Source of the DNA: Candidatus Binatia bacterium
GTDB taxonomy: Bacteria > Desulfobacterota > Binatia > UBA12015
Reading direction: 5' to 3'
DNA: 64,000 nt
Assembly (NCBI GenBank): GCA_029248525.1
Contig: JAQWJE010000016.1
Location: 62,001-126,000 of the forward strand
Under the pieces are notes generated by a model that was not told where the DNA came from, did no database searches, and saw nothing but the letters and a program-made list of their open reading frames with translations. Every line of letters starts with the position of its first letter. Position 1 is the first letter of the stretch. The position numbers and the translations under genes were made by a program. Below are positions 5,303-32,963 of the stretch, in pieces.

Positions 5303-6640
5303 CTAGAAGACAACCTGGAAACGGGTTTGCCACACGTTTTCGCTGCCGATGGGTTCCCGCTCCGAGTAGATATAGTTGATCGTCCAGCGGAAGGCCGGGT
5401 TGAGATACCAGTTGATGCCCAGAGAGGTGTCGCGCAGTTCGCCCCCCTGAACCGACCCCGAATTCAGGTCGAGTCCGCTGTAGCGGGCCGCGATCTGAAA
5501 GGCGCCCCAGCCCGAGTTTTTGCCAAGAGTGACAGGCGATTTGGGTTGGATGCCGCTGAAGGCTCCCTTGCTGCGGTTAAATGGACGATGTTCTCCGGTA
5601 AGAATCCAGCTCGCCTCGACAAACCAGCTGTAAAAGTCCAGATCGGGTCCGGTGGTCGCATTCATAAAGCTGTGGCTGTACTCGGCCTGGCCGGTAAAGG
5701 GACCGATGACGTTTGCCAGACTGATATTGATGAGGTTGTTGCCGTTGGTGGAGATGTCGCCCGTACCGATCAGGCGTGGGCCAAAGCTGGTATTCGGGCG
5801 GCCGGAGTAGGAGGTCGTGCCGGCGTTGCGGAACTGATGGGTTGCGGCGACACCTGCATAGAACATCTTGCGGCCGTCTTCTTCCCACCAGGGCAATCCG
5901 TAGACACGAGTCGCTACGTTATACTCGGAATCGAAGTCGAAAGCGCTCGCCGTTTCATTGGAGTCGATATACGCGCCCAGGTCCCAGCCCAGGCGGCTAT
6001 CGAAGAATCGGGGGTACATCGTGATACCCGTGTTTCGTGCGGCATCCAGTGTGGCTCCGGCACCGCGCTCCATGAAAGTGTTGTTGTTGCTGCTGGTCAT
6101 TTGATCCAGCGAGGAAGGCTCTTTCATATGGCCGATCAGAACGGATCCAAAGAACGGAAGGTTACGGGCGCCCAGATAGAGATCCTTGATCCCGGCTTTT
6201 GCGCCCGCAAAATCATATTGAGCCTTGAAGAGAAAGTTCTGGAAGAGCGACCCGCTTACGTAGAGGCGCGCGCGTCGGATTTTTCCTCCTGATTCAGTTG
6301 AACCTTCATCGAACTCTGTCTGAATTGCCGAACTGGGCTTCAGAATGGCCCAGTCGTTCTGAATCCGCCCGCCGATCTTCAGCTTGAAGGCCTTGTCGGG
6401 GGATTCCAGGCGCAGGCCGCTCTTCCAGTAGACCTTGTAGTTTGTGGAAGCCTTCTGGAGGGTTTTCTCCTCGGCCGCAGCTTTTTCTTTCAGTTCTTCA
6501 TATTTTGATTCGGATACCTTGCCGGTCTCGCGTAGGATTTCGAGAATCTCGGCGGTGACGCCTTGCTCTGCCCTTACGAATTCGGCGGATAGCAAGACGG
6601 TGCTCAGAATCATCTGGCAAACCAAAAACCTTGAAAACAT
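5303..6640 (-). CDS. Phosphate-selective porin (OprO/OprP family)
   Basis: 445 aa with a signal peptide ending near FVRA, a short Lys/Glu-rich helical stretch (about 35-65), then a beta-barrel beginning KLKIGGRIQNDWAIL and ending in an aromatic residue (RFQVVF), as expected for outer-membrane insertion. Motifs such as KIRRARLYVSGSLFQNFLFK, IGHMKEPSSLDQ and LGINWYLNPAFRWTINYIY are typical of OprO/OprP-type porins. It is the first gene of the operon, ahead of pstS, which supports anion/phosphate uptake across the outer membrane. GAGG sits about 9 bases before the ATG. The divergent gap to the next gene (6641-6819) should hold the operon promoter; I found no convincing Pho box in it. Confidence 0.88.
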   Translation of the reverse strand: MFSRFLVCQMILSTVLLSAEFVRAEQGVTAEILEILRETGKVSESKYEELKEKAAAEEKTLQKASTNYKVYWKSGLRLESPDKAFKLKIGGRIQNDWAILKPSSAIQTEFDEGSTESGGKIRRARLYVSGSLFQNFLFKAQYDFAGAKAGIKDLYLGARNLPFFGSVLIGHMKEPSSLDQMTSSNNNTFMERGAGATLDAARNTGITMYPRFFDSRLGWDLGAYIDSNETASAFDFDSEYNVATRVYGLPWWEEDGRKMFYAGVAATHQFRNAGTTSYSGRPNTSFGPRLIGTGDISTNGNNLINISLANVIGPFTGQAEYSHSFMNATTGPDLDFYSWFVEASWILTGEHRPFNRSKGAFSGIQPKSPVTLGKNSGWGAFQIAARYSGLDLNSGSVQGGELRDTSLGINWYLNPAFRWTINYIYSEREPIGSENVWQTRFQVVF

Positions 6641-6819
6641 TATACTTTATCCTCGGAATGGCTGGTGGGACGATCTCGCGAGTCCCAATTGCAAAACATC
6701 ATTTTCGCGTTTCCTGCGGTGGAATCTAACAGCGGAATGTTTCCATCTGGTTACGGAGCAGTGTCGATCCAGTGAAAGATCCGGCGGGACCGACGATTTG
6801 CTTCTGTTAAGGTGCACGC

Positions 6820-7611
6820 ATGTCTTATCCGGAGCCGAATTCCTCGATCCCGCTCGAGATCGTGCGGGAGGATGAGGAGATCCTCGTTGTGGCCAAGCCA
6901 AGCGGTCGGGTGAGTCTCCCGGGTGCGGGCCATACCTCGGATTCGGTTCAGAATGCTGCGATGGCGCATGCCGGGACGGTTTTGGGGGGGCTCGGGGCGG
7001 CACGGGATTACGGGTTGCTGCACCGACTCGACCGCGCGAGCAGCGGGCTTCTCCTGTTCGCAAAAAGCCCGAGAGCCTATGATCGCCTGCGTGAGGATTT
7101 TGCCCGGCGTCGCATTCGTAAGGATTACCTCGCGATTACCGCCGCGACGCCAATTCGAGGCGAGGGGGTCCTTCGCCAGCCATTGGCGGAACTGCGACTG
7201 CAGGACCGCAAGGTTTCGCGGCCGGATCCGCAGGGCAGCCCGGCGGTGACTCACTATCGTTTGCGCGCCCGCGGGCGCTCGGGTGTCGCGTTGCTGGAAT
7301 GCCGAATCGAGACTGGCCGGCTCCATCAGATTCGCGCGCACCTTTCCTCGATCGGGGCCCCGCTCCTGGGCGATCTTGTCTATGCGAAGCGCGAGCCGGA
7401 CGGTCGCGCCTCGATCGGCCGTAAGGCGGATCGAGAGATTCTGCTGCACGCCTGGCGTCTCGGATTCAAGCACCCGGGCACCGGCGAAAGCCTCCTCGTG
7501 GAGTTGTTGCCGCCGAGCCGTTTTTTGAGCGCATGCCGCCAGCATGGACTTCCCTTTTCCGGCGGAGGGCGGAAGCCTTCCCTGCAAAAACCTCGTAAGC
7601 CGCGGTCCTAG
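6820..7611 (+). CDS. RluA-family RNA pseudouridine synthase
   Basis: 263 aa. The catalytic motif LLHRLDRASSGLLLFAK is intact with the nucleophilic aspartate at residue 71, and GRLHQIRAHLSSIGAPLLGD is the usual second conserved block. No S4 RNA-binding domain precedes the catalytic domain, which puts it with the short RluA/TruC-like members. It isomerises uridine to pseudouridine in rRNA or tRNA; the target site cannot be assigned from sequence. The gene stands alone and its TAG stop shares bases with the stop of the convergent malonyl-CoA decarboxylase gene (CTAG at 7608-7611). Confidence 0.9.
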   Translation: MSYPEPNSSIPLEIVREDEEILVVAKPSGRVSLPGAGHTSDSVQNAAMAHAGTVLGGLGAARDYGLLHRLDRASSGLLLFAKSPRAYDRLREDFARRRIRKDYLAITAATPIRGEGVLRQPLAELRLQDRKVSRPDPQGSPAVTHYRLRARGRSGVALLECRIETGRLHQIRAHLSSIGAPLLGDLVYAKREPDGRASIGRKADREILLHAWRLGFKHPGTGESLLVELLPPSRFLSACRQHGLPFSGGGRKPSLQKPRKPRS

Positions 7612-8870
7612 TCGAGCAGCGCCCGGACCGCTGCGGCGGCGTGGATTTTCTGCTCGGTCTCATAGGTCGCCTGATTCGATTCCAGGGTCTCCGCCGCATA
7701 GCGATAATTGACCATCAATCCGAGGGATTGTCGGAGTCCTTTGGGCGAGATGTCGGCGTTGGCGTGGATGGCTTCGATGCGAGCGCCATTGCGCAGGTGG
7801 AATCGGGCTACAGGGTCGATCGGTGTTCCGTCGGCTCGAGTTGCATGGAAGTAGCGGGCGCAAAGCTTTTGCAGGTCCGGGGATAGTTGGGCCGCGGTCT
7901 CTGGTTCGAGCAGACTTTCGCGATTCTCGAGGACGGTCGTCAGGCTTGCTCGCAGCGGGTCATCCGGGTCCAGGAATTCTGCGTTCTCGCGCGCGAGTCG
8001 GCTCTCCAGCCATACCCGAAAGCCGGGGATGGGCGAGAGGGTCGCGAAGGTCCCAAGCTGTGGGAGGTCCTGCCGCAGAAGGCGGGCGGCCCCGCGCAGG
8101 AGATACTCGCCGAAGCTGATGCCGCGCAGCCCTTTCTGGGGGCTGGAAATCGAATAGAAGATTGCGGTATCGGCCGCGTGGGGGTCGCCGACCGGGGCTT
8201 TCTCGTCCAGCAGTTTCTGAATCGAACTCGAAAGGCCGGCGACCAGCGCTACCTCGACAAAGGCCAGTGGTTCTCCGGGCATGGACGGGTGAAAGAGGGC
8301 GTAGCAGCGGCGGTCGGAATCGAGTCGGTTGCGTAGATCTTCCAGCGAGCGGATGGCGTGAACCGCCTCGTAGGCGACAAGTTTTTCCAGAAGTGCCGCA
8401 GACGAATTCCACGTGATCCGTTCGAGTTTGAGAAAGCCGAAATCGAAAAAGGACCGCAGGACGAAAACCAGGGCATCGTCGAGAGCTTGCAGTTGGGGAC
8501 TCCGGGACACGATGGTGAGCAGGTCGGCGCGGAGATCGACAAGGAATTTTGCCCTGTCGGGTACGGCATGGAATTGCGTGAACAGGCGTCTGTACGGGGG
8601 GCGAAGAGCGCGGCGCAATTGGCGTTGGGCGTCGATCCTCGGGCCGACCTCGGTGGCCTCCTGCCAGGCTCGGGTGGCTGCGGCGATGGCCTCGGGCGAC
8701 GGTCCGAACTCCTCGGCCAGGAGGATCAGGAAATTCTGTCGGCCCTCGCTGTCGAGGTTCTGGTAGCGGGCGGCAAGCTCGATCGCGTGGAGGCGACCGA
8801 CAACCTCGCTGCCAGCAGCATCGAGGCACGCGGCGATCGCCTGCCTCCAGGTTTCGACCGGCTCCTGCAT
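7608..8870 (-). CDS. Malonyl-CoA decarboxylase
   Basis: 420 aa, full length for the bacterial enzyme. It has the N-terminal helical domain and a C-terminal GNAT-like catalytic domain. Diagnostic stretches are HPSMPGEPLAFVEVALV, FYSISSPQKGLRGISFGEYL, ATLSPIPGFRVWL (with the catalytic-region serine) and RFHLRNGARIEAIHANADIS (with the catalytic-region histidine). It decarboxylates malonyl-CoA to acetyl-CoA, either to dispose of malonate or to lower malonyl-CoA and so limit fatty-acid synthesis. It lies 10 bp downstream of a PfkB kinase gene on the same strand, so the two are probably co-transcribed, although no biochemical link is evident. Confidence 0.93.
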   Translation of the reverse strand: MQEPVETWRQAIAACLDAAGSEVVGRLHAIELAARYQNLDSEGRQNFLILLAEEFGPSPEAIAAATRAWQEATEVGPRIDAQRQLRRALRPPYRRLFTQFHAVPDRAKFLVDLRADLLTIVSRSPQLQALDDALVFVLRSFFDFGFLKLERITWNSSAALLEKLVAYEAVHAIRSLEDLRNRLDSDRRCYALFHPSMPGEPLAFVEVALVAGLSSSIQKLLDEKAPVGDPHAADTAIFYSISSPQKGLRGISFGEYLLRGAARLLRQDLPQLGTFATLSPIPGFRVWLESRLARENAEFLDPDDPLRASLTTVLENRESLLEPETAAQLSPDLQKLCARYFHATRADGTPIDPVARFHLRNGARIEAIHANADISPKGLRQSLGLMVNYRYAAETLESNQATYETEQKIHAAAAVRALLD

Positions 8871-24684: not shown

Positions 24685-25683
24685 ATGCCAAACTTCAAGA
24701 TGTGGGGGCAGGCCCTGAGCGTCATGCCCCGAATCGACAAGGCTGAATGGGATGATCTCGATCTCGTCTCTCGTTGGTTGATCGCGTCCCGCGCCGCTGT
24801 TCTGGTGATGACCTTCGTCTCGGCGGCGTTCGGTGGACTGCTGGCGGCCAAGGCGGGACTTTTTTCCTGGGAGCCCTTCCTGCTGTGTGTTCTCGGCCTG
24901 TGCCTCGCCCACGCAACCAATAATCTCATCAACGACCTGACCGACTATTGGAAGGGCGTCGACGAGGGGAATTATTTCCGGACCCAATACGGGCCGCAGA
25001 CGGTTCAGGCCGGATTCCTCTCGGTGCGGGGACTGATGGGCTATGCCGCCATTACCGGTGCTGCCGCGTTGCTGATCGGCGTGTGGCTGGTGATGACCCG
25101 GGGGGAAGGCGTTCTCTGGCTGTTGGCCGCGGGCGCTTTTTTTGTCCTTTTCTACACCTGGCCTCTGAAATATATCGGCCTCGGCGAGCCTGCTGTCCTG
25201 GCGGTATGGGGGCCGCTGATGGTGGGCGGGACTTATTATGTGGTGACGGGGCAATGGAGTGCGGAAGTGGCGTGGGCGAGCGTCGCGTACGGGCTGGGCC
25301 CGACGGCTGTGCTGTTCGGTAAGCATATCGACAAGCTCGATCTGGATGCCGCCAAGGGGATTCGGACCTTGCCGGTCCTTCTGGGCGAGAGGCAATCCCG
25401 TCGTGCCGTGGTGGCCATGCTGGTATTGCAATTCGTGATCGTTGGCGCCCTGGTCCTGAGCGGCTATTTTCAATGGCCGATGCTTCTCTGTTTTCTCGCA
25501 GCACCATCGATTCAGCGGGTTCGTCAGATCTACGCGCATCCGCGGCCTGCTGAAGAGCCGGAAGATCTGCCCCCCGGGATCTGGCCGCTTTATTTTGTCG
25601 CCGTGGTGTTCTGGTTCAACCGTCGTTTCGGGTTGCTGTTTGTGGCAGGTCTTCTCGGTGATCTATTTCTGAGCCTCGGGTGA
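24685..25683 (+). CDS. UbiA-family prenyltransferase (MenA-like)
   Basis: 332 aa integral membrane protein, starting at ATG 24685 (a TTG precedes it directly). The first Asp-rich motif is NNLINDLTDYWKGVDEG and the second is GKHIDKLDLDAAKGIRTLP, both needed to bind Mg-prenyl diphosphate. The arrangement is closest to MenA-like 1,4-dihydroxy-2-naphthoate polyprenyltransferases, which would make it a quinone-biosynthesis enzyme, but other UbiA members (for example for tocopherol-like or haem side chains) cannot be excluded. Its last 21 bp overlap the convergent Lgt-paralogue gene. Confidence 0.82.
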   Translation: MPNFKMWGQALSVMPRIDKAEWDDLDLVSRWLIASRAAVLVMTFVSAAFGGLLAAKAGLFSWEPFLLCVLGLCLAHATNNLINDLTDYWKGVDEGNYFRTQYGPQTVQAGFLSVRGLMGYAAITGAAALLIGVWLVMTRGEGVLWLLAAGAFFVLFYTWPLKYIGLGEPAVLAVWGPLMVGGTYYVVTGQWSAEVAWASVAYGLGPTAVLFGKHIDKLDLDAAKGIRTLPVLLGERQSRRAVVAMLVLQFVIVGALVLSGYFQWPMLLCFLAAPSIQRVRQIYAHPRPAEEPEDLPPGIWPLYFVAVVFWFNRRFGLLFVAGLLGDLFLSLG

Positions 25684-26547
25684 ATTCAATCCGGCCGGGC
25701 CGGGGGGCGGATCCCTGCGGTCCCCGAGGTGGTCGTTGCTTTCGTCGAGCGCCGAGCAATTCAGTCGAAAACCGAGGATCCCGGCCGCCACGGTCATGGC
25801 GAGGCTGACCCAAAAGAGCTGGGGGAGCGGGCCCCAATAGATGCGGTAGGCGTGCTCGGCGCGCCAGAATTCCAGAATCGTGCTCGAGGCGGAGAAGAGA
25901 AAGAGCAGAATCACGCCAAGCTCGCCCTCGTAGCGCCGGTGGGGACGCCTCCAGAGAAGAATCGCCGAGATCAGCAGGCCGACTCCGGCAAAGTAAAGCG
26001 GCAGCGGGTGGACGGGATGAGAGTGCGGGGCGCCCCGGTCCAGCACGCCGGCTTCGATCTGCGAATGGTAGGTATAGCTGTCCGAGGGCAGAGAGATGCC
26101 CCAAGGGAGGTCGCAGATCTCGCCGTAGCAGCATCCATTGAGGAAGCAGCCAAAGCGGGCCAGGGCGATACCGATACCGACGGTTGGTGCGAGACCATCA
26201 ACAAAGCGGCCGATCGGCAGGCGCAAGGCCCGCAGGACGAACCAGCCGCCGATCGTGAGGCAGGCGATCGCACCCGGTGCATGGAGGCCGCCGCTGCTCA
26301 GGCGAAAGAGCTTTGTGGGGTCGGCCGCAAAGAAGTGCCATTTGGTGATGGCGAAATGCAGGCGCCCACCGGCGAGCACAATGACCATCATCAAAAAGAT
26401 GGCGATCAGGACTCGTCCCGGGGGGAGTTGCTCGCGGACGATGGTCCAGCGCAGGCCGAGGCCGACGCAAATCACGATGGCCAGTCCTACGAGCAGGTCG
26501 TGGCTGGCGATCGTGCCGAGAAAAGGAAGCTCAAAGCGCGTGAGCAC
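25663..26547 (-). CDS. Lgt-family prolipoprotein diacylglyceryl transferase paralogue
   Basis: 294 aa with about seven membrane segments. The signature region ARFGCFLNGCCYGEICDLPW corresponds to the Lgt block GRxGNFxNxExxG but carries the GCC variant seen in Lgt paralogues of several former deltaproteobacteria. HPVHPLPLYFAGVGLL matches the conserved histidine-rich QLYE-like region (HP.P.YE in Lgt), though the glutamate is replaced. It may transfer diacylglycerol to a subset of lipoproteins, or act on another phosphatidylglycerol-derived substrate. Whether a canonical Lgt exists elsewhere is unknown. It converges on and overlaps the UbiA gene. Confidence 0.72.
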   Translation of the reverse strand: MLTRFELPFLGTIASHDLLVGLAIVICVGLGLRWTIVREQLPPGRVLIAIFLMMVIVLAGGRLHFAITKWHFFAADPTKLFRLSSGGLHAPGAIACLTIGGWFVLRALRLPIGRFVDGLAPTVGIGIALARFGCFLNGCCYGEICDLPWGISLPSDSYTYHSQIEAGVLDRGAPHSHPVHPLPLYFAGVGLLISAILLWRRPHRRYEGELGVILLFLFSASSTILEFWRAEHAYRIYWGPLPQLFWVSLAMTVAAGILGFRLNCSALDESNDHLGDRRDPPPGPAGLNSPEAQK

Positions 26548-26584: not shown

Positions 26585-29500
26585 TCAGAAGGCGCACTCA
26601 CATGAGCCCCCCGCCGTCGAACAAGTACCGCCGCATACCCCGCAGGCGTCGCCGGTCTGACAACCGTCCGTTGAGCATTCACCCGCGGTGCAGGTGTCGA
26701 TCGTGCAGGTGTTCCCATCGCAGCTGGCCGGGCCGTCGGGCTTGAACTGACAGTCACTCTGACAGCAGGTGTTGCCGTTTTCCGAGCCATCATCGCATTG
26801 CTCGCCGGTCTCGACCGCGCCGTTGCCGCATACCGGCTCCGGGGTGGGTTCCGCTGTTGGCGTCGGTGTCGGCGTCGGGACAGGCGTCGGCGTCGCCGGG
26901 GGCGCCTCGGTAGGTTGCAGACACCAGAGGTCGAGAGTGCCGGTATCGCCAGCAGCAGCATCGCTCACTGCCAGAGTCCACTCGCCGCCCAGGTTTTGCC
27001 CATCAAATGCGGACAAGGGGTTGTTGGGGACGAAGGTGCCCGCGATGGTGGGCGTTCCATTGCTGCATTCATCCTCGACGGCCGCGGAGGCTTCGTCGTC
27101 GAGGAGCGCCTCGATATCATTTCCCGCACAGCCCCAATCGCTCGCACCCGGGTTGCCGGGTCGATCTACGAGGACCACGCTGGTGCCCGACTCCTCATGG
27201 GTGAGGGTCACCTGAAGGTCGCCGACCCAGCTATGGGTAATCGAAACCGACAGGTTCAGATCGGCAATTGTGCCCGAGGGCGGCAGATTGATGCTGTCGG
27301 ACAAGCTGCCGCCAGCGTCCGGAATGGCCGCTTCCGGCTGGCTGCAGAGTCCTGCAGGGGTTGGTGCCGGTGTCTCTGTGGGTTTCGGACTTGGCTCCGG
27401 GGTTTCGGTCGGCCCGGGCGTTTCGGTCGGTGCCGGTGTTTCGGTGGGCTCGGGCGTCTCTGTGGGTGCTGGTGTTTCGGTCGGCTGTGGCGTCGGTGTG
27501 GGGGCAACGCCCCCTTCGCAGGCAAACACCCGCAGATCGTCGACATACCAACCGATGATGCCGTTACAGCCGTCGGTGCCAAGCTCAAAGCGCAAGGCGA
27601 TGGTGTCGCCCGGATTGGCGAGGCTCGCCAGGCTGATCTGGGATTGGCCCCAGCTGCCCCCATTGGACCCGCCATCGGTGCCCGAGAAGGCTGGCTCGCC
27701 GGTATTCGGGTTGTCACTCGTCTTCAGCGTCGCGTTGTAGGAGTTGAAGCTGAAGGCGGAGCCGGGAATCAGGCTCCAGGTGCCTCCGTTGACCGAAATC
27801 TTCACGTTTGAGCCATCCCACTCAGTCTCGGTCGCGACCCAATGGTCAAAGGCGATGCGGGCTGTCGTGATATCTGCGGGCAGGGAGATCGACGGGGACT
27901 CGAGGACGAGTACGCCCGCTTCGGTGTCCGCCCCGCAATTGCCGACCACGACATTGGGAACAAACATGGCCGAGCCGGATCGACTCCCCGGCAGGCTCGA
28001 TTGGATCGACCAATCCGGTGCATCAAATGTGGATGGATTTGCGACGGCTCGCGTGGTTGCTGTCCAGCCCGAGGATCCGCTTTCCCAATCCTGCAGCAAA
28101 ATCGTATTGGGTGCGTTGCCGCTGCACAGCGCCGGGGCATCCGCGTCGAGAAGGGCAGCAAAGGAGCAAGGGGTCTCGTCGCGCAGTTCGGTCGCCTCGA
28201 TCGCGTTTGTTACCGCCTGGCAATCCGCAGAAGTGATGGCGGGACCGGTGCTGCCCCAGGGGCCGGCACCCGTCGTGAGTTCGAAAAGTGGCGTCCCGAT
28301 CAGATCGGTACACGAGGTTTCCAGCGCCGTGGCGAGATCATGAAAGTCGCTGGCCGCCTGCAGGTAGGTAACCGCTGCGCGCCAGAAGATATGGGAGGCT
28401 TTGGGGATGCCCAGCGCAGCGATCGTTTTGCCATTGTACTGGCCACCATCCACAAGCAGCGCAAAGGCATGATTGGGGACGCCCGAATTGATATGAACGC
28501 CGCCCGCATCGCCAGTTTGGCACCAGTAGTCTGCCGATCCGACCCGTCCGGGATCGCCGTAGCATTCCGGCCGCCACATATCGCGAATCGCGCCGCCAAA
28601 TGCCCAATCGTCCTCGCCGGAAAGCCAGCGGATCGTATTATCGCCCTTGGGGGAGCCGTTGCCGAAATCGGAACAGAGGTTGCCGGCGACCGCCCGCAGG
28701 GCGTTGGGCGTATCGGTGCCGCGACCATTGAGCATATCCACGACTTCGCCCCAGATGTCCGAGTAGGCTTCGTTCATCGCGCCCGATTGCCACTGGTAGA
28801 TGAGGTTGTTTGTTTTCTGCGTGTAGCCGTGGGCCCACTCGTGCGCGACGGTGTCGTCGGCGGTGACACCATCGCAATAATTGGTCGATACGCCATTCCA
28901 GGTCGCGTTGGGACAGCTGATATTCGGGTCATTGTTGACCGTGAGCATCGTGGCATCCAGACCGTCGAAGGACAGATAGGCTCCGTTGGTCATGCTCGCG
29001 AACAGATTGTAGGACTCCTTGGCCCCGTCGATCTCGTCCTGCCAGGCCGAGACCTGGGCTGTGGTCCCTCCGGCCCAGCTATCGGTGATCGGATCGGGGT
29101 CCCCGTCTTTCCAGACGCGATTGGCGACACTGGATTCTCCGACTTCGCGTTTGAGGGCTTCGTGAATTCCCGAGATCTGAGCTACCCGCTCGCCACTCTG
29201 CGCATCGAGAAAGAGGAACTCGCGAATGTTGGCGTCGGTTGCCTGAACTTCGATTTCGAACACCAATCGGAGTTCGGGTGTTTTTCCGCTGAGCAGGCCG
29301 CGTGGGAAAACACGCAGGCCGTGGTTGGTTGCGTTGAACAGCGCGGGGTCGGCGGCACGCTGCCGTGCGATTTCCTGCAGGGCGAGTTGCGAAGCGGTGT
29401 CGGGCGCGAGGGCCGCTGTCGTTCCCAGATCTGCGGGAACGGGCACGAAGGTGCCATTGACCATCGTCAACCGCCCGCTGGCGTCGAGGTGCGCCCGCAG

Positions 29501-29866
29501 ACTGCTGCCATAGACCGGGACTCCGCGATGCACCTGCCGGTAGGCGACAGTCTCATGCCCGAGGAAGTCGGTCTTCGACGAGATTTCTTCGAGCTCCTCG
29601 TCCGCGTTTCGAATACCAAAGAGGTTGCCGTAGCCCGCGAAAAAGGCGTTCGCCTTGCTCGTGGCGGAGGCGTTCCGTGCCTGCATCGGGGCCAGATCAA
29701 TGCCTTGATCGACTTGCACAAATCGAGCTGTTCCTGTGGCGGGGCGCGGTTCGCTCCGGACGTTCGCTCCAACGGCGCTGCGGAGTTGCGGAAGGTCACT
29801 TCCCCAGGCGAGCAAGGGCAGGGCGGGTATCGCCAACAGCGCGGCTAGCAGCAGACGTTTTGTCAT
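26585..29866 (-). CDS. Secreted thermolysin-family (M4) metallopeptidase with P domain and Cys-rich C terminus
   Basis: 1093 aa. In order: signal peptide (residues 1-22), FTP/PepSY propeptide (about 30-240), M4 catalytic domain (about 250-570) with zinc site HEWAH at 342-346 and third ligand Glu366 in MNEAYSD, and [11 protein letters not shown] further on; a jelly-roll/MAM-like domain (about 590-784); a Pro/Thr/Glu linker of PTETPAP/PTETPEP repeats; a proprotein-convertase P domain (about 845-985, [19 protein letters not shown]); a second PTPTP linker; and an 82-residue module with 15 cysteines. All catalytic residues are present, so it should be an active secreted endopeptidase. The terminal module is nearly identical to that of the next gene upstream. 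Confidence 0.9.
26588..26833 (-). repeat. Shared Cys-rich C-terminal module, copy 1 (protease)
   Basis: Encodes the last 82 residues of the protease, from [16 protein letters not shown] to the stop. It has 15 cysteines at the same positions as the copy at 29961-30206; by hand alignment 62 of 82 residues are identical with no gaps. The GEQCDDG start resembles the Cys-rich repeats (DUF4215-like) of myxobacterial surface proteins. Confidence 0.85.
27351..27510 (-). repeat. Pro/Thr/Glu linker repeat in the protease gene
   Basis: Encodes a run of PTETPAP, PTETPEP and PTETPGP units between the jelly-roll and P domains. At the DNA level it is a degenerate 21-base tandem repeat, so the copy number may vary between strains or be mis-assembled. 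Such linkers usually act as extended, protease-resistant or glycosylated spacers. Confidence 0.75.
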
Positions 29867-29912
29867 CAGAGGACCTCTTTCCAGACCCTTTCCGGCCCCA
29901 ATTATCAGTATC

Positions 29913-29938
29913 GCGGCGAAGCCTCCCGGCTTCGCCGC
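29913..29938 (-). promoter_or_regulatory. Perfect 11-bp stem-loop between the dihaem protein and protease genes
   Basis: Arms 29913-29923 and 29928-29938 are perfectly complementary around a four-base loop. No T-run follows on the minus strand, so it is more likely an RNA-stability or processing element, or a weak attenuator, between the two co-directional genes (91 bp gap) than a full terminator. Confidence 0.6.
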
Positions 29939-29957
29939 TCATGATGGGCCGTTTTTC

Positions 29958-32900
29958 TTAAAGGACGCAATCGCAGCCGCCGCCAGCGGTCGAGCAGATT
30001 CCGCCGCAAGGGCCGCAGGCTTCTCCGTCGCGGCAGCCACCCGCGCTGCACTCACCTGCGGTGCAGGTGTCGATGGTGCATTCATTACCGTCACAGCTGG
30101 CCGGCCCGTCCGCCTTGAACTGGCAGTCTGCTTGACAGCAGGTGGCCCCGTTTTGTTCTCCATCGTCACATTGCTCGCCGGTCTGCACGATGCCATCGCC
30201 GCAAACGCCGGCCGGGGTCGGCTGAGGCGTGGGGGCAGGCGTCGGCGTCGGGCCACCCGGGAAGCTGAGCGGATTGGCCGGGTCGGTGCCGGCGTCTCGT
30301 TCGTCCATGTCGAGGAAGGAATCCAGATCCCTGTCGATGCCCATACGGGTGCCCGATCCGGGAGGAACACAGGTGTAGGTGACCGAAACGTTGAAGGTCT
30401 CAGGCAATCCGAGAATGACACTCGCGGGGAAGGTTGCGCCCCGGTCGGTGAGGAAAGAGTTGCTGCCGGGCTGATACACGGTGCCGCGGTGTTCTTCGGT
30501 TGTGGCTCCGTTGCCCTGAATCACGCCTTTGGAAATCACTTCACAATCGCCGGCCGCAGCTCTGGTCAGCATCAGATTCACACGGTCGAGATCTGCGGTG
30601 GGAGCACCCGGTCGCAGTGTGATCTGCTGTCCGACGATGGGCGCCATGTTGGAGTCAAAGGCCAGAGACATGGCTTCCAGATTCCGCTTTTCCTGATCGC
30701 TCAACCCAAAGACAGGGGCACTGAAAAACGTGAAGAGGGTGTCGATTGCGCCATCGTGGAGATAGCCGCTGCCGCGGACCTGATCGCCGGGTTGATTGAA
30801 CATCCCGACCTTCTGATACATATTTCGTAGGTGGGGGATCTTGAACTCTTGCGTTTCCCCTTCCTGCGAGGAGTCGCCGTCGGTCCCAAAAAAGCCGGCT
30901 GATCTGTCCGAAGTATGACAGGTGTTGCAGTTGCCGACGCCATCGGTGTTGCGGCCGAAGTAGAGGGCCTCACCCTGGGCCGCGATGCCGGTATGCACCC
31001 GGTTGAACGACATCTCGGGATTGGGTGGATAGATGATGCCCATCGCGAAGGTGGCAAACTGCTCCATTTCTGTCGGTGTGAGTTGGCTGCTGCGTCCGAG
31101 GAGTCCGACGAAAGCAGGGTTGAACTCCTGAAATCCGCCGAATTCGTTAAAGGCTCCCGTGCCATTTGCCCGGCTATTCGGTTCCTCTTCGGCGCGACTT
31201 TTGTCGCCGCGCCAATGCAGAGGGCCGTGGCCCTCCATGCCGCGCAAGGATTGTGTGGTCATTGCCCCCTTGAGAGCACTGAAAGGCGACGGGTTGCCGA
31301 TCTGAAAAGGATTCAAGTTCAACATCTCATGCTCGTCCGGATTGCCGAGGTTCCACGTCAGGCTGTCGAAGTCGCCAGAGATATGGCACGAGCCGCAGGA
31401 TTGCGTGCCGTTGTTCGAGCTATTGGTTGCGTCGTAGAGGAATTTCCGGCCATCGGTGATGCTTGAGGGCTCGGGGTTGTGAATCGGAATATGGAAGGTC
31501 TCGGTCTCCGAGACGATGTCCACCACCGAGATTCCATTGTCGAATCGAGTCTGGACGTAGAGCTGGTTGCGCGTTTCGTCGAGAACCAAACCACCGGGGC
31601 CGCCGCCAGTGATGGTGATCTGATGATTCTCATCGGGAACGAAGGTTCCCGCTTCGAGCTCGGCGGTGTCGTAAACCCCCACCTTCCCCGATCCGAAAGC
31701 GGCGACGTAGAGAGTCGTGCCGTCAGCAGAGACCACCATTTCGAGCGGCGTGGCCAGACTGCGCGATTTGAGCGCCGGATCAGCCGGGATCTGCGAGAAA
31801 TCAACGTGGGTATTCAAGGCCCAGGGCGTGACCGCACCGTTGGTCGGATCGATGACGGTGATTCTGTTCTCATGGAGGTGCCCCTGCACCGTAGTGCCGC
31901 GGGTGCCGGATCCTTCGAAGCGGACTTCATTGAAGGCCTCGGTGTTCGAAACATAGATGTTGCCCGACTGCGGGTTGGTCACCATGTTGAAAAGGATGGT
32001 GCCCACGCCGGCAAAATCGTCGACGAGTTGTATGCTGGCGAGCGAGTTTCCCGACACGTCGAGGGCAAACACATCAAGATCCGGGAGGCGGAACTGGATG
32101 GCGTCGTTCCAGCTGCGGCCCAGTTCGTCTTCCCAGGCGCCTGTCTGAATGTTGAATTTGACGATGAGCCCGACCTCGGGGCCGGGGTTGCCATCGGCGT
32201 CGGTGTTGGGGGCGGGAACTCCACCCGGCAGGTTCAGGCCATTGATCTGGCAGGGACCAGCGGCGGCGCCACCGTCACAAACCAGTGGCTCGGTTACGAC
32301 CGTGGTCTGGTTGCCAGAGTGAAAGGCCGCCGAGTAGACGGTCATCCCGTCGGGGGATACCGCGAGGGCACGGGGAGTGTCGCTGAATAATTGAAGGATG
32401 CGTGCCCGGTTCGCCGCGAACGTATTGGGCGTCTGCTGCGTGTCGAATACCCAGACATCGTGTCGTCCAATGCCGGGAACCGAGTAGTCGGCATCAATCA
32501 GGCTGTTCTGTCCGCGGTGTGCCGTGGTCACAAAGGCAAAGCGGCCGTCGGTCCCGGCAAAGACGATATCCCTTGGCTCGTCACCGACCAGCAGAGTTCT
32601 TGCGACCTCGATTTGGGCACATCCGGTGGCCGTTGGATTTGCGTCAAAGGAGACCACGCTGACCGAGTCCGAGAGTTGATTGACAACCCAGGCATCGCCG
32701 CTTTGGGGCTGGACGGCCACTGCGACGGGATCGAGGCCGACCGGGATGCTGCACTCGTGGACCGGAAACCCTGCAGAAAGATCGAAAACCTCGAGGTGGG
32801 CATCGGGGATATTGGTCACCAACAACCGGTTGCCATCGAGGGTCAGGGCCATCGGCCGCACGGCTATGGATTCGAAGTTCGTGTAAGTCTGCGCTCCGGC

Positions 32901-32963
32901 GGGCGCGGTCGTCCAGGTCGCTCCAATAAAAGCTATAAAAAACAGTAGTTTGTTGAGTTTCAT
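29958..32963 (-). CDS. Secreted beta-propeller/dihaem cytochrome c peroxidase-like protein with Cys-rich C terminus
   Basis: 1001 aa. A signal peptide (cleavage near PAGA) precedes a YncE-like propeller (about residues 28-480) with blades such as RPMALTLDGNRLLVTNIPDAH and ALAVSPDGMTVYSAAFHSG. A MauG/CcpA-type dihaem region follows, with CGSCH at 523-527 and CNTCH at 679-683; LRGMEGHGPLHWRGDKS lies between them. Then come a short PTPAPTPQ linker and the 82-residue, 15-Cys module shared with the protease. The architecture suggests an extracytoplasmic haem enzyme that oxidises or peroxidises a substrate at the cell surface; the substrate is not apparent. AGGAGG lies about 9 bases before the ATG. 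Confidence 0.85.
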   Translation of the reverse strand: MKLNKLLFFIAFIGATWTTAPAGAQTYTNFESIAVRPMALTLDGNRLLVTNIPDAHLEVFDLSAGFPVHECSIPVGLDPVAVAVQPQSGDAWVVNQLSDSVSVVSFDANPTATGCAQIEVARTLLVGDEPRDIVFAGTDGRFAFVTTAHRGQNSLIDADYSVPGIGRHDVWVFDTQQTPNTFAANRARILQLFSDTPRALAVSPDGMTVYSAAFHSGNQTTVVTEPLVCDGGAAAGPCQINGLNLPGGVPAPNTDADGNPGPEVGLIVKFNIQTGAWEDELGRSWNDAIQFRLPDLDVFALDVSGNSLASIQLVDDFAGVGTILFNMVTNPQSGNIYVSNTEAFNEVRFEGSGTRGTTVQGHLHENRITVIDPTNGAVTPWALNTHVDFSQIPADPALKSRSLATPLEMVVSADGTTLYVAAFGSGKVGVYDTAELEAGTFVPDENHQITITGGGPGGLVLDETRNQLYVQTRFDNGISVVDIVSETETFHIPIHNPEPSSITDGRKFLYDATNSSNNGTQSCGSCHISGDFDSLTWNLGNPDEHEMLNLNPFQIGNPSPFSALKGAMTTQSLRGMEGHGPLHWRGDKSRAEEEPNSRANGTGAFNEFGGFQEFNPAFVGLLGRSSQLTPTEMEQFATFAMGIIYPPNPEMSFNRVHTGIAAQGEALYFGRNTDGVGNCNTCHTSDRSAGFFGTDGDSSQEGETQEFKIPHLRNMYQKVGMFNQPGDQVRGSGYLHDGAIDTLFTFFSAPVFGLSDQEKRNLEAMSLAFDSNMAPIVGQQITLRPGAPTADLDRVNLMLTRAAAGDCEVISKGVIQGNGATTEEHRGTVYQPGSNSFLTDRGATFPASVILGLPETFNVSVTYTCVPPGSGTRMGIDRDLDSFLDMDERDAGTDPANPLSFPGGPTPTPAPTPQPTPAGVCGDGIVQTGEQCDDGEQNGATCCQADCQFKADGPASCDGNECTIDTCTAGECSAGGCRDGEACGPCGGICSTAGGGCDCVL
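29961..30206 (-). repeat. Shared Cys-rich C-terminal module, copy 2 (dihaem protein)
   Basis: Encodes the last 82 residues of the dihaem protein, from [16 protein letters not shown] to the stop. Cysteine spacing is identical to the copy at 26588-26833, and the segment between ([20 protein letters not shown]) is nearly unchanged. The two copies are more alike than any other part of the two proteins, pointing to duplication or conversion of a C-terminal cassette. Confidence 0.85.

Follow-up and report, generated by a model that had tools for sequence, protein, structure and literature searches.

A terminal cysteine-rich module on unrelated secreted proteins of Binatia and its genomic link to a paralog of Lgt

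We know of no identified enzyme that lipidates the cysteine of bacterial C-terminal sorting tags. Passages of one report describe MYXO-CTERM (TIGR03901) as a C-terminal tag with an invariant cysteine in a generic GCGC motif, carried by many exported proteins; after the cysteine motif come a hydrophobic transmembrane helix and an Arg-rich cytoplasmic end, and a CPBP-type myxosortase cuts the tag (PMC11980579). The same passages propose that a predicted Lgt-like acyltransferase lipidates the cysteine, with Lgt as the leading but unproven candidate (PMC11980579). For Lgt of E. coli, passages of a second report describe Arg143 and Arg239 as a catalytic pair and His103 as essential (PMC4728403). 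Here we analyze a 64,000-nucleotide window from Candidatus Binatia bacterium (assembly GCA_029248525.1, contig JAQWJE010000016.1, positions 62,001 to 126,000), in which two adjacent genes for secreted proteins end in closely similar modules of 82 residues and 15 cysteines, hereafter the tag, beside a gene for an Lgt-family membrane protein. Our literature search found no description of this tag, nor of a terminal C-x-C as the target of an Lgt paralog.

All window genes and modules discussed lie on the minus strand. One tag (26588..26833) closes a secreted M4 metalloprotease (26585..29866) and the other (29961..30206) a secreted beta-propeller/MauG-like di-haem protein (29958..32963); the positions 26588 and 30206 given in an earlier, sequence-only reading of the window are the outer limits of the module pair. 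As that reading had it, the two proteins share 62 of their C-terminal 82 residues without a gap, and all 15 cysteines align. The final C-x-C-x-x is CECAF in the protease (26588..26602) and CDCVL in the propeller protein (29961..29975). A profile built from the two modules matches them in the window's own genome (G000; 4.27 Mb, 59 contigs) at G000:C16:88588-88833 and G000:C16:91961-92206, and the likeness goes beyond chance, as the same profile recovers five further full-length copies from this genome with E values of 2e-26 to 5e-20. The bodies of the two hosts are indeed unrelated and have no Pfam family in common. The protease consists of an FTP propeptide, an M4 domain, a MAM-like stretch, a P-proprotein domain and the tag, while the other protein gives a lactonase-type propeller match and a CCP_MauG match slightly below threshold (24.4 versus 25.6 bits). 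No lipobox-like cysteine is present in the first 90 residues of either protein. The Pro/Thr linkers claimed ahead of both modules are there (26834..26911 in the protease, 30207..30257 in the propeller protein), but they do not hold as a rule, being found in only 6 of the 14 copies whose flank was read.

The alternative that the sequence-only reading itself had raised was a recent duplication or gene conversion of neighbouring genes, in which case the module would need no function of its own. The adjacency of the two tagged genes fits this, as does the 75% identity of their tags, the third-closest pair among 15 aligned copies. At the DNA level, however, the modules are 72% identical; codon positions 1, 2 and 3 agree at 67, 69 and 41 of 82 codons, and the same codon is used at 35 of the 62 identical residues. 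Because only half of the third positions agree, the window modules are not the product of recent copying, and both gene conversion and recent duplication were dropped on these codon-position identities. Six further copies, each on a contig of its own, and the eight found in another family make such an origin very improbable.

The tag was sought in 14 genomes of the same taxonomic family, 148 of the class and 395 sampled from the phylum, where 13 candidates were scored per genome. In G000 the two-module profile found seven full-length copies at E <1e-19, the next match reaching only about 4e-6. An eighth copy (G000:C58, E 8e-8, terminal, ending in GCGCLF) came from A5, a profile of approximately the last 45 residues of the tag that did not contain this copy. 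All eight tags are at the extreme C-terminus and end in C-x-C and two residues, the last of which is Phe, Tyr or Leu. Apart from the two window proteins, the hosts include a subtilase on C14, an Exo_endo_phos protein on C49 and, on C35, a 1738-residue protein with a propeller match slightly above cut-off. The protein-family scan, which covered the seven hosts other than the C58 protein, gave no named body for the C53 protein, and for the C22 protein, which has an HExxH stretch, gave a weak DUF4215 match in the tag alone. These eight genes are spread over seven contigs, with adjacency in the window pair alone, so the suggestion of a co-localised set is not supported at the gene level.

Beyond G000, full-length matches at E <1e-30 in the 14 genomes of the family are confined to its own species (G000 and G007), and the class-wide scan (E<=1e-13) finds the tag in 4 of 148 genomes, namely these two and G416 and G447, which belong to another family. 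In the phylum sample only G000 has the full module, one other genome giving a partial match at 7e-9. Thus the claim that the module is specific to this lineage was nearly right, the four genomes being spread over two families. G416 and G447 hold four intact copies each, all eight of them terminal, and both copies in G007 are terminal. The bodies overall comprise M4, propeller, S8, Exo_endo_phos, GSDH, laminin-G/NHL and, weakly, ThuA. The search of own and related genomes that had been proposed for the segment therefore yields a strictly terminal list of tags on unrelated secreted proteins. G447 also has a broken fifth copy (L099, G447:C116:17500-22500, at about 2161-2640), a short frame that continues beyond CECAY, and a short cysteine-containing protein (L332, G447:C143) whose end is a hydrophobic helix followed by YARRTAR, which we take to resemble a classical CTERM sorting signal.

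Fifteen intact copies (seven of the eight from G000 and four each from G416 and G447) were aligned and share 28 invariant columns, among them all 15 cysteines. Every one of the 15 ends in C-x-C and one or two further residues, none of them Arg. Pairwise tag identity is 51-81%, with a mean of 62% within a lineage and 58% between the two families; the module is therefore ancient and kept under selection. Between the propeller orthologs of G000 and G416, the bodies are 49% and the tags 62% identical. As the number of cysteines is odd and invariant, one of them would lack a partner within the module unless it carries a modification or bonds elsewhere.

The module might instead be a domain for binding or stabilisation that is rich in disulfides and kin to DUF4215 or the cysteine-rich acidic repeat. 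It would then tether the enzymes to surface polysaccharide or to one another with no covalent lipid involved, and would be terminal by habit only. The first third of the module does weakly match these families: in seven G000 copies scanned, DUF4215 matches three, all below cut-off, and TIGR02232 matches three, one of them above it (22.4 versus 20.8). Kindred repeats abound inside proteins of these genomes, and of the weaker G000 matches to the tag, those read in frame are internal, for the most part cover the first third of the module alone and look like relatives of the DUF4215/TIGR02232 repeat. In contrast, no full module was seen inside a protein among the copies read in G000, G007, G416 and G447, and the last cysteine lies one or two residues from the C-terminus in all 15 aligned copies. 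No solved structure matched the tag at E<=0.1. Since a binding domain would also leave the Lgt link described below unexplained, we consider it rather unlikely.

The window's Lgt-family gene (25663..26547) begins 37 bp past the stop of the protease gene on the same strand, an adjacency also found in G007, and its product matches PF01790 with 111.4 bits against a cut-off of 24.9. It is one of three Lgt-family genes in G000 and a paralog of the C39 copy, which is the best family match, keeps Arg239 (E. coli numbering here and below) and is taken as the housekeeping Lgt. A tree built from 59 Lgt-family proteins places the window paralog in an eight-member clade with support 100/99 (G000, G009, G416, G447, G105, G422, G432 and G452), and five of the eight members adjoin a gene whose product has a C-x-C tail. 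In G416 the clade gene is divergent from the tagged propeller ortholog at approximately 125 bp; in G009 it is convergent, at 423 bp, with the gene of a 1532-residue protein ending in CGGTCSDAGGACSCSF; and in G105 and G422 it is co-directional behind the genes of a 991-residue protein ending in CGGMGGCVCQ (about 35 bp) and a 383-residue protein ending in SCGCGAGTGG (about 67 bp). The G009, G105 and G422 tails are divergent, that of G422 being the loosest, with eight residues past the second cysteine of the C-x-C, or six with the last G-C pair set aside. The adjacency thus occurs in three orientations and with at least four kinds of partner, all having a C-x-C near the C-terminus. The G009 and G105 tails are matches to the module profile and so independent of the Lgt search, whereas the G422 tail was found via the Lgt gene; outside the four tag genomes, among the matches listed, only G009 and G105 reach model position 84 or 85 of 85. 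A5 ranks the G009, G105 and G422 tails first in their genomes by construction, as it includes them.

The link also holds at the level of genomes. A4, a profile made from six of the clade's proteins and used at E <1e-120, marks 7 of the 148 class genomes, and all four tag genomes are among them, a coincidence with a chance of 1.8e-6, or 6.6e-6 when the tree clade is used instead, which with G007 spans nine genomes; both values assume independent genomes, which these are not. Counted by genus, the two tag genera are among five carrier genera of 72 (approximately 0.004). Elsewhere in the window, the interval between the propeller and protease genes (29867-29957) holds a GC-rich hairpin (GCGGCGAAGCC..GGCTTCGCCGC) with no T run; it was not among the terminators listed by the promoter/terminator scan and may attenuate the putative unit of the three genes.

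A broader relation between Lgt paralogs and C-terminal cysteines was examined around 43 Lgt-family genes that carry the signature R-x-GC....CC-x-G in genomes of the class, near genes being those within 600 bp (<=600 bp) and far genes those at >1500 bp. Open reading frames (ORFs) and signal peptides were called with home-made, crude procedures, and dockerin-like domains ending in cysteine inflate the background. A C-x-C within the last 12 residues occurs in 6 of 85 near genes, a count that excludes the window gene and the G416 propeller (cut off in its locus), against 1 of 208 far genes (p=0.003). A cysteine in the last three residues is found in 12/80 near and 11/208 far genes (p=0.013) and in the last four in 13/80 and 14/208 (p=0.022); for ORFs with a signal peptide alone, p is 0.11 to 0.14 for the last three to five. 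A control of genes upstream of canonical Lgt comprised six cases, one with a cysteine. When the paralogs are split by Arg239, those lacking it have a neighbour within 600 bp with cysteine in the last four residues in 13/23 cases and those keeping it in 3/21 (p=0.005), a split that was made post hoc, with the partners of G416:C123 and of the window added by hand and with some matches in both groups (L202, L190, L215) that look like chance ORFs. That any Lgt paralog adjoins a protein with a C-terminal cysteine is therefore only suggestive as a broad claim.

A second Lgt clade, in which Arg239 is kept, lies directly behind a secreted family with tails like VDVDID..FFSLF. In all nine partners with a readable start, a C-x-C (CGC or CSC) stands immediately past the signal peptide, as against 3 of 105 signal-peptide ORFs in other loci; in the other two of the 11 loci, the partner is cut in one and was not found in the second. 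The nine are homologous and count as one event. An example is L146 (G000:C49:623000-636000; Lgt at 6007-6864, partner at 6867-8450), with relatives in L191, L198, L204, L206, L208, L211, L212 and L213. Taken together, the two clades suggest that the Lgt paralogs of the class go with terminal C-x-C motifs. Other Lgt-family genes of family f111 are at L147 (G416:C86), L203 (G416:C20), L149 (G437:C1), L145 (G416:C91), L195, L150, L153 and L210, and the various proteins beside them end in CGCE, CGCG, GGCQ, CTCN, CGCP, GGCL, SCE, VCR, TCG and SCP. As a mark of the paralog, R-x-GC....CC-x-G was rejected, since it is shared by Lgt genes in other families of the phylum that stand beside ORFs which we take, from their N-terminal sequence, to be lspA-, def- and fmt-like. 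In phylum genomes such Lgt genes (L286-L309) have cysteines at the positions of E. coli Asn146 and Glu151 (GRIGCFxAGCCYG). Changes of Glu151 inactivate the E. coli enzyme, according to a passage in PMC4728403.

The terminal position on unrelated secreted proteins and the linked membrane protein of a lipid-modification family agree with the original suggestion of a sorting or anchoring tag; the module is probably such a tag of some kind. Tagged proteins would be exported by the ordinary N-terminal signal peptide read in their sequences. We infer that the cysteine-rich tag then folds with disulfides outside the cytoplasm and that one cysteine of the terminal C-x-C is modified by the adjacent Lgt-family protein, which would give a lipid anchor at the C-terminus and fix the protein's final place. 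No lipobox-like stretch is present in the first 90 residues of 11 of the 15 tagged proteins of G000, G416 and G447, including all seven of G000, and therefore the ordinary lipoprotein route would not anchor those 11; for two of the four exceptions the frame was taken from stop to stop, with no start set. The whole explanation, a C-terminal anchoring tag whose terminal cysteine is lipidated by an Lgt paralog, has in our estimate a probability of roughly 45%, and lipidation by the window paralog in particular is a tentative assignment with odds somewhat below even.

Several observations weigh against this explanation. The first concern the active site, where the paralog keeps Arg143, Gly154, His196, Glu243 and Arg246 and is changed at Arg239, Glu202, His103 and Gly142. 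In all eight clade members, Arg239 is replaced by Ser or Ala, Glu202 by Phe, and His103 by Pro, Ala or Gly, while Arg239 is present in 9/9 presumed housekeeping Lgt proteins selected within the class by their signature and in 17/17 aligned Lgt proteins from other genomes of the phylum. His103 is a weak mark, as most aligned presumed housekeeping proteins have Tyr or Ser there. With Arg239, Glu202 and His103 changed, the paralog might do an altered reaction, or none; in E. coli, Arg239 and His103 are intolerant to change, as a passage in PMC4728403 has it. The distribution is also narrow, the tag genomes belonging to only two genera. The G009 partner and the protease have a MAM-like stretch in common (39% over 103 residues) and so are not fully unrelated. 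In G447 the clade gene is approximately 2 kb from the propeller ortholog and the tagged genes are elsewhere, and the clade members G432:C10 and G452:C1144 have no neighbour with a C-x-C tail, part of the G432 flank being unreadable. The signal peptide of the G416 propeller holds a lipobox-like LAGC, and an AlphaFold model of the tag (predicted local distance difference test, 47) was unusable and was not used. The broader neighbour pattern weakens when only signal-peptide ORFs are counted (C-x-C, 3/28 versus 0/42, p=0.06; cysteine in the last five, 8/27 versus 6/42, p=0.14), when the last five residues are taken (13/80 versus 18/208, p=0.087) and among upstream same-strand genes (8/34 versus 20/215, p=0.035); these tests used the same data that prompted the idea, and the pattern was not replicated in data outside the class. 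Beside these points, the G447 propeller/di-haem ortholog (L144, 8965-11880) ends in a dockerin-like TPCGG where the others have the cysteine tag, so that one propeller body carries different terminal modules in G000 and G416 versus G447.

The altered active site would also suit a tag read by some other machine, such as type II secretion, a cytosolic cysteine-modifying enzyme of the MNIO kind or a sortase, with the Lgt paralog serving otherwise. Residues that E. coli Lgt requires are missing from the paralog, and C-terminal cysteine motifs on proteins of >30 kDa are described as MNIO substrates in other phyla in a passage of PMC12636315. Against it, the Lgt link recurs with different partners; no search aimed at MNIO, sortase or secretion genes was made, and we regard this possibility as no more than rather improbable.

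If lipidation by the paralog is true, C-terminal lipoproteins would be one more means by which such bacteria keep proteases, cytochrome-like proteins and nuclease-like enzymes on the cell, and the tag would supply a motif by which to find these proteins. With the compact tag and a single Lgt paralog as neighbours, the idea of Lgt-like lipidation is testable with two genes, and the pair suggests a new mode of attaching enzymes to the cell through the C-terminal end. More speculatively, in a new prokaryotic pathway for C-terminal lipoproteins, a helix-free, disulfide-rich tag would present its terminal C-x-C as encoded, a dedicated Lgt paralog with an altered site would lipidate it without cleavage, and, given the related paralogs of the class whose secreted partners have a C-x-C just past the signal peptide, an Lgt-like protein with a terminal C-x-C would form a general lipidation code outside the lipobox; in this generality we find the proposal unlikely.

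The system compares with several that are known. The paralog passes the Lgt (PF01790) profile cut-off and keeps the signature Arg143, which is its own Arg131, while Arg239 of the catalytic pair is replaced, and unlike in the Lgt system most of the partner proteins are without an N-terminal lipobox cysteine. The likeness of the module to DUF4215 (PF13948) and the cysteine-rich acidic repeat (TIGR02232) lies in about its first 30 residues; unlike these families, the module is terminal and not a repeat, and its C-terminal 45 residues have no family match. Rab-type prenylation of a C-terminal CXC is cytosolic and eukaryotic and attaches a prenyl group by unrelated enzymes; a lipid on an extreme C-terminal C-x-C, with no membrane helix, would share that layout. 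Like MYXO-CTERM, the present tag has a short C-terminal motif with an invariant cysteine, here a C-x-C in 15/15 copies. Unlike MYXO-CTERM, it has neither a transmembrane helix nor an Arg-rich end, is approximately 82 residues long with 15 cysteines and has an Lgt paralog linked in the genome, and we do not file it under MYXO-CTERM because two defining features fail. With its C-x-C already one or two residues from the C-terminus, no cutting is needed, and by analogy the tag looks like the product of the myxosortase cut, encoded directly.

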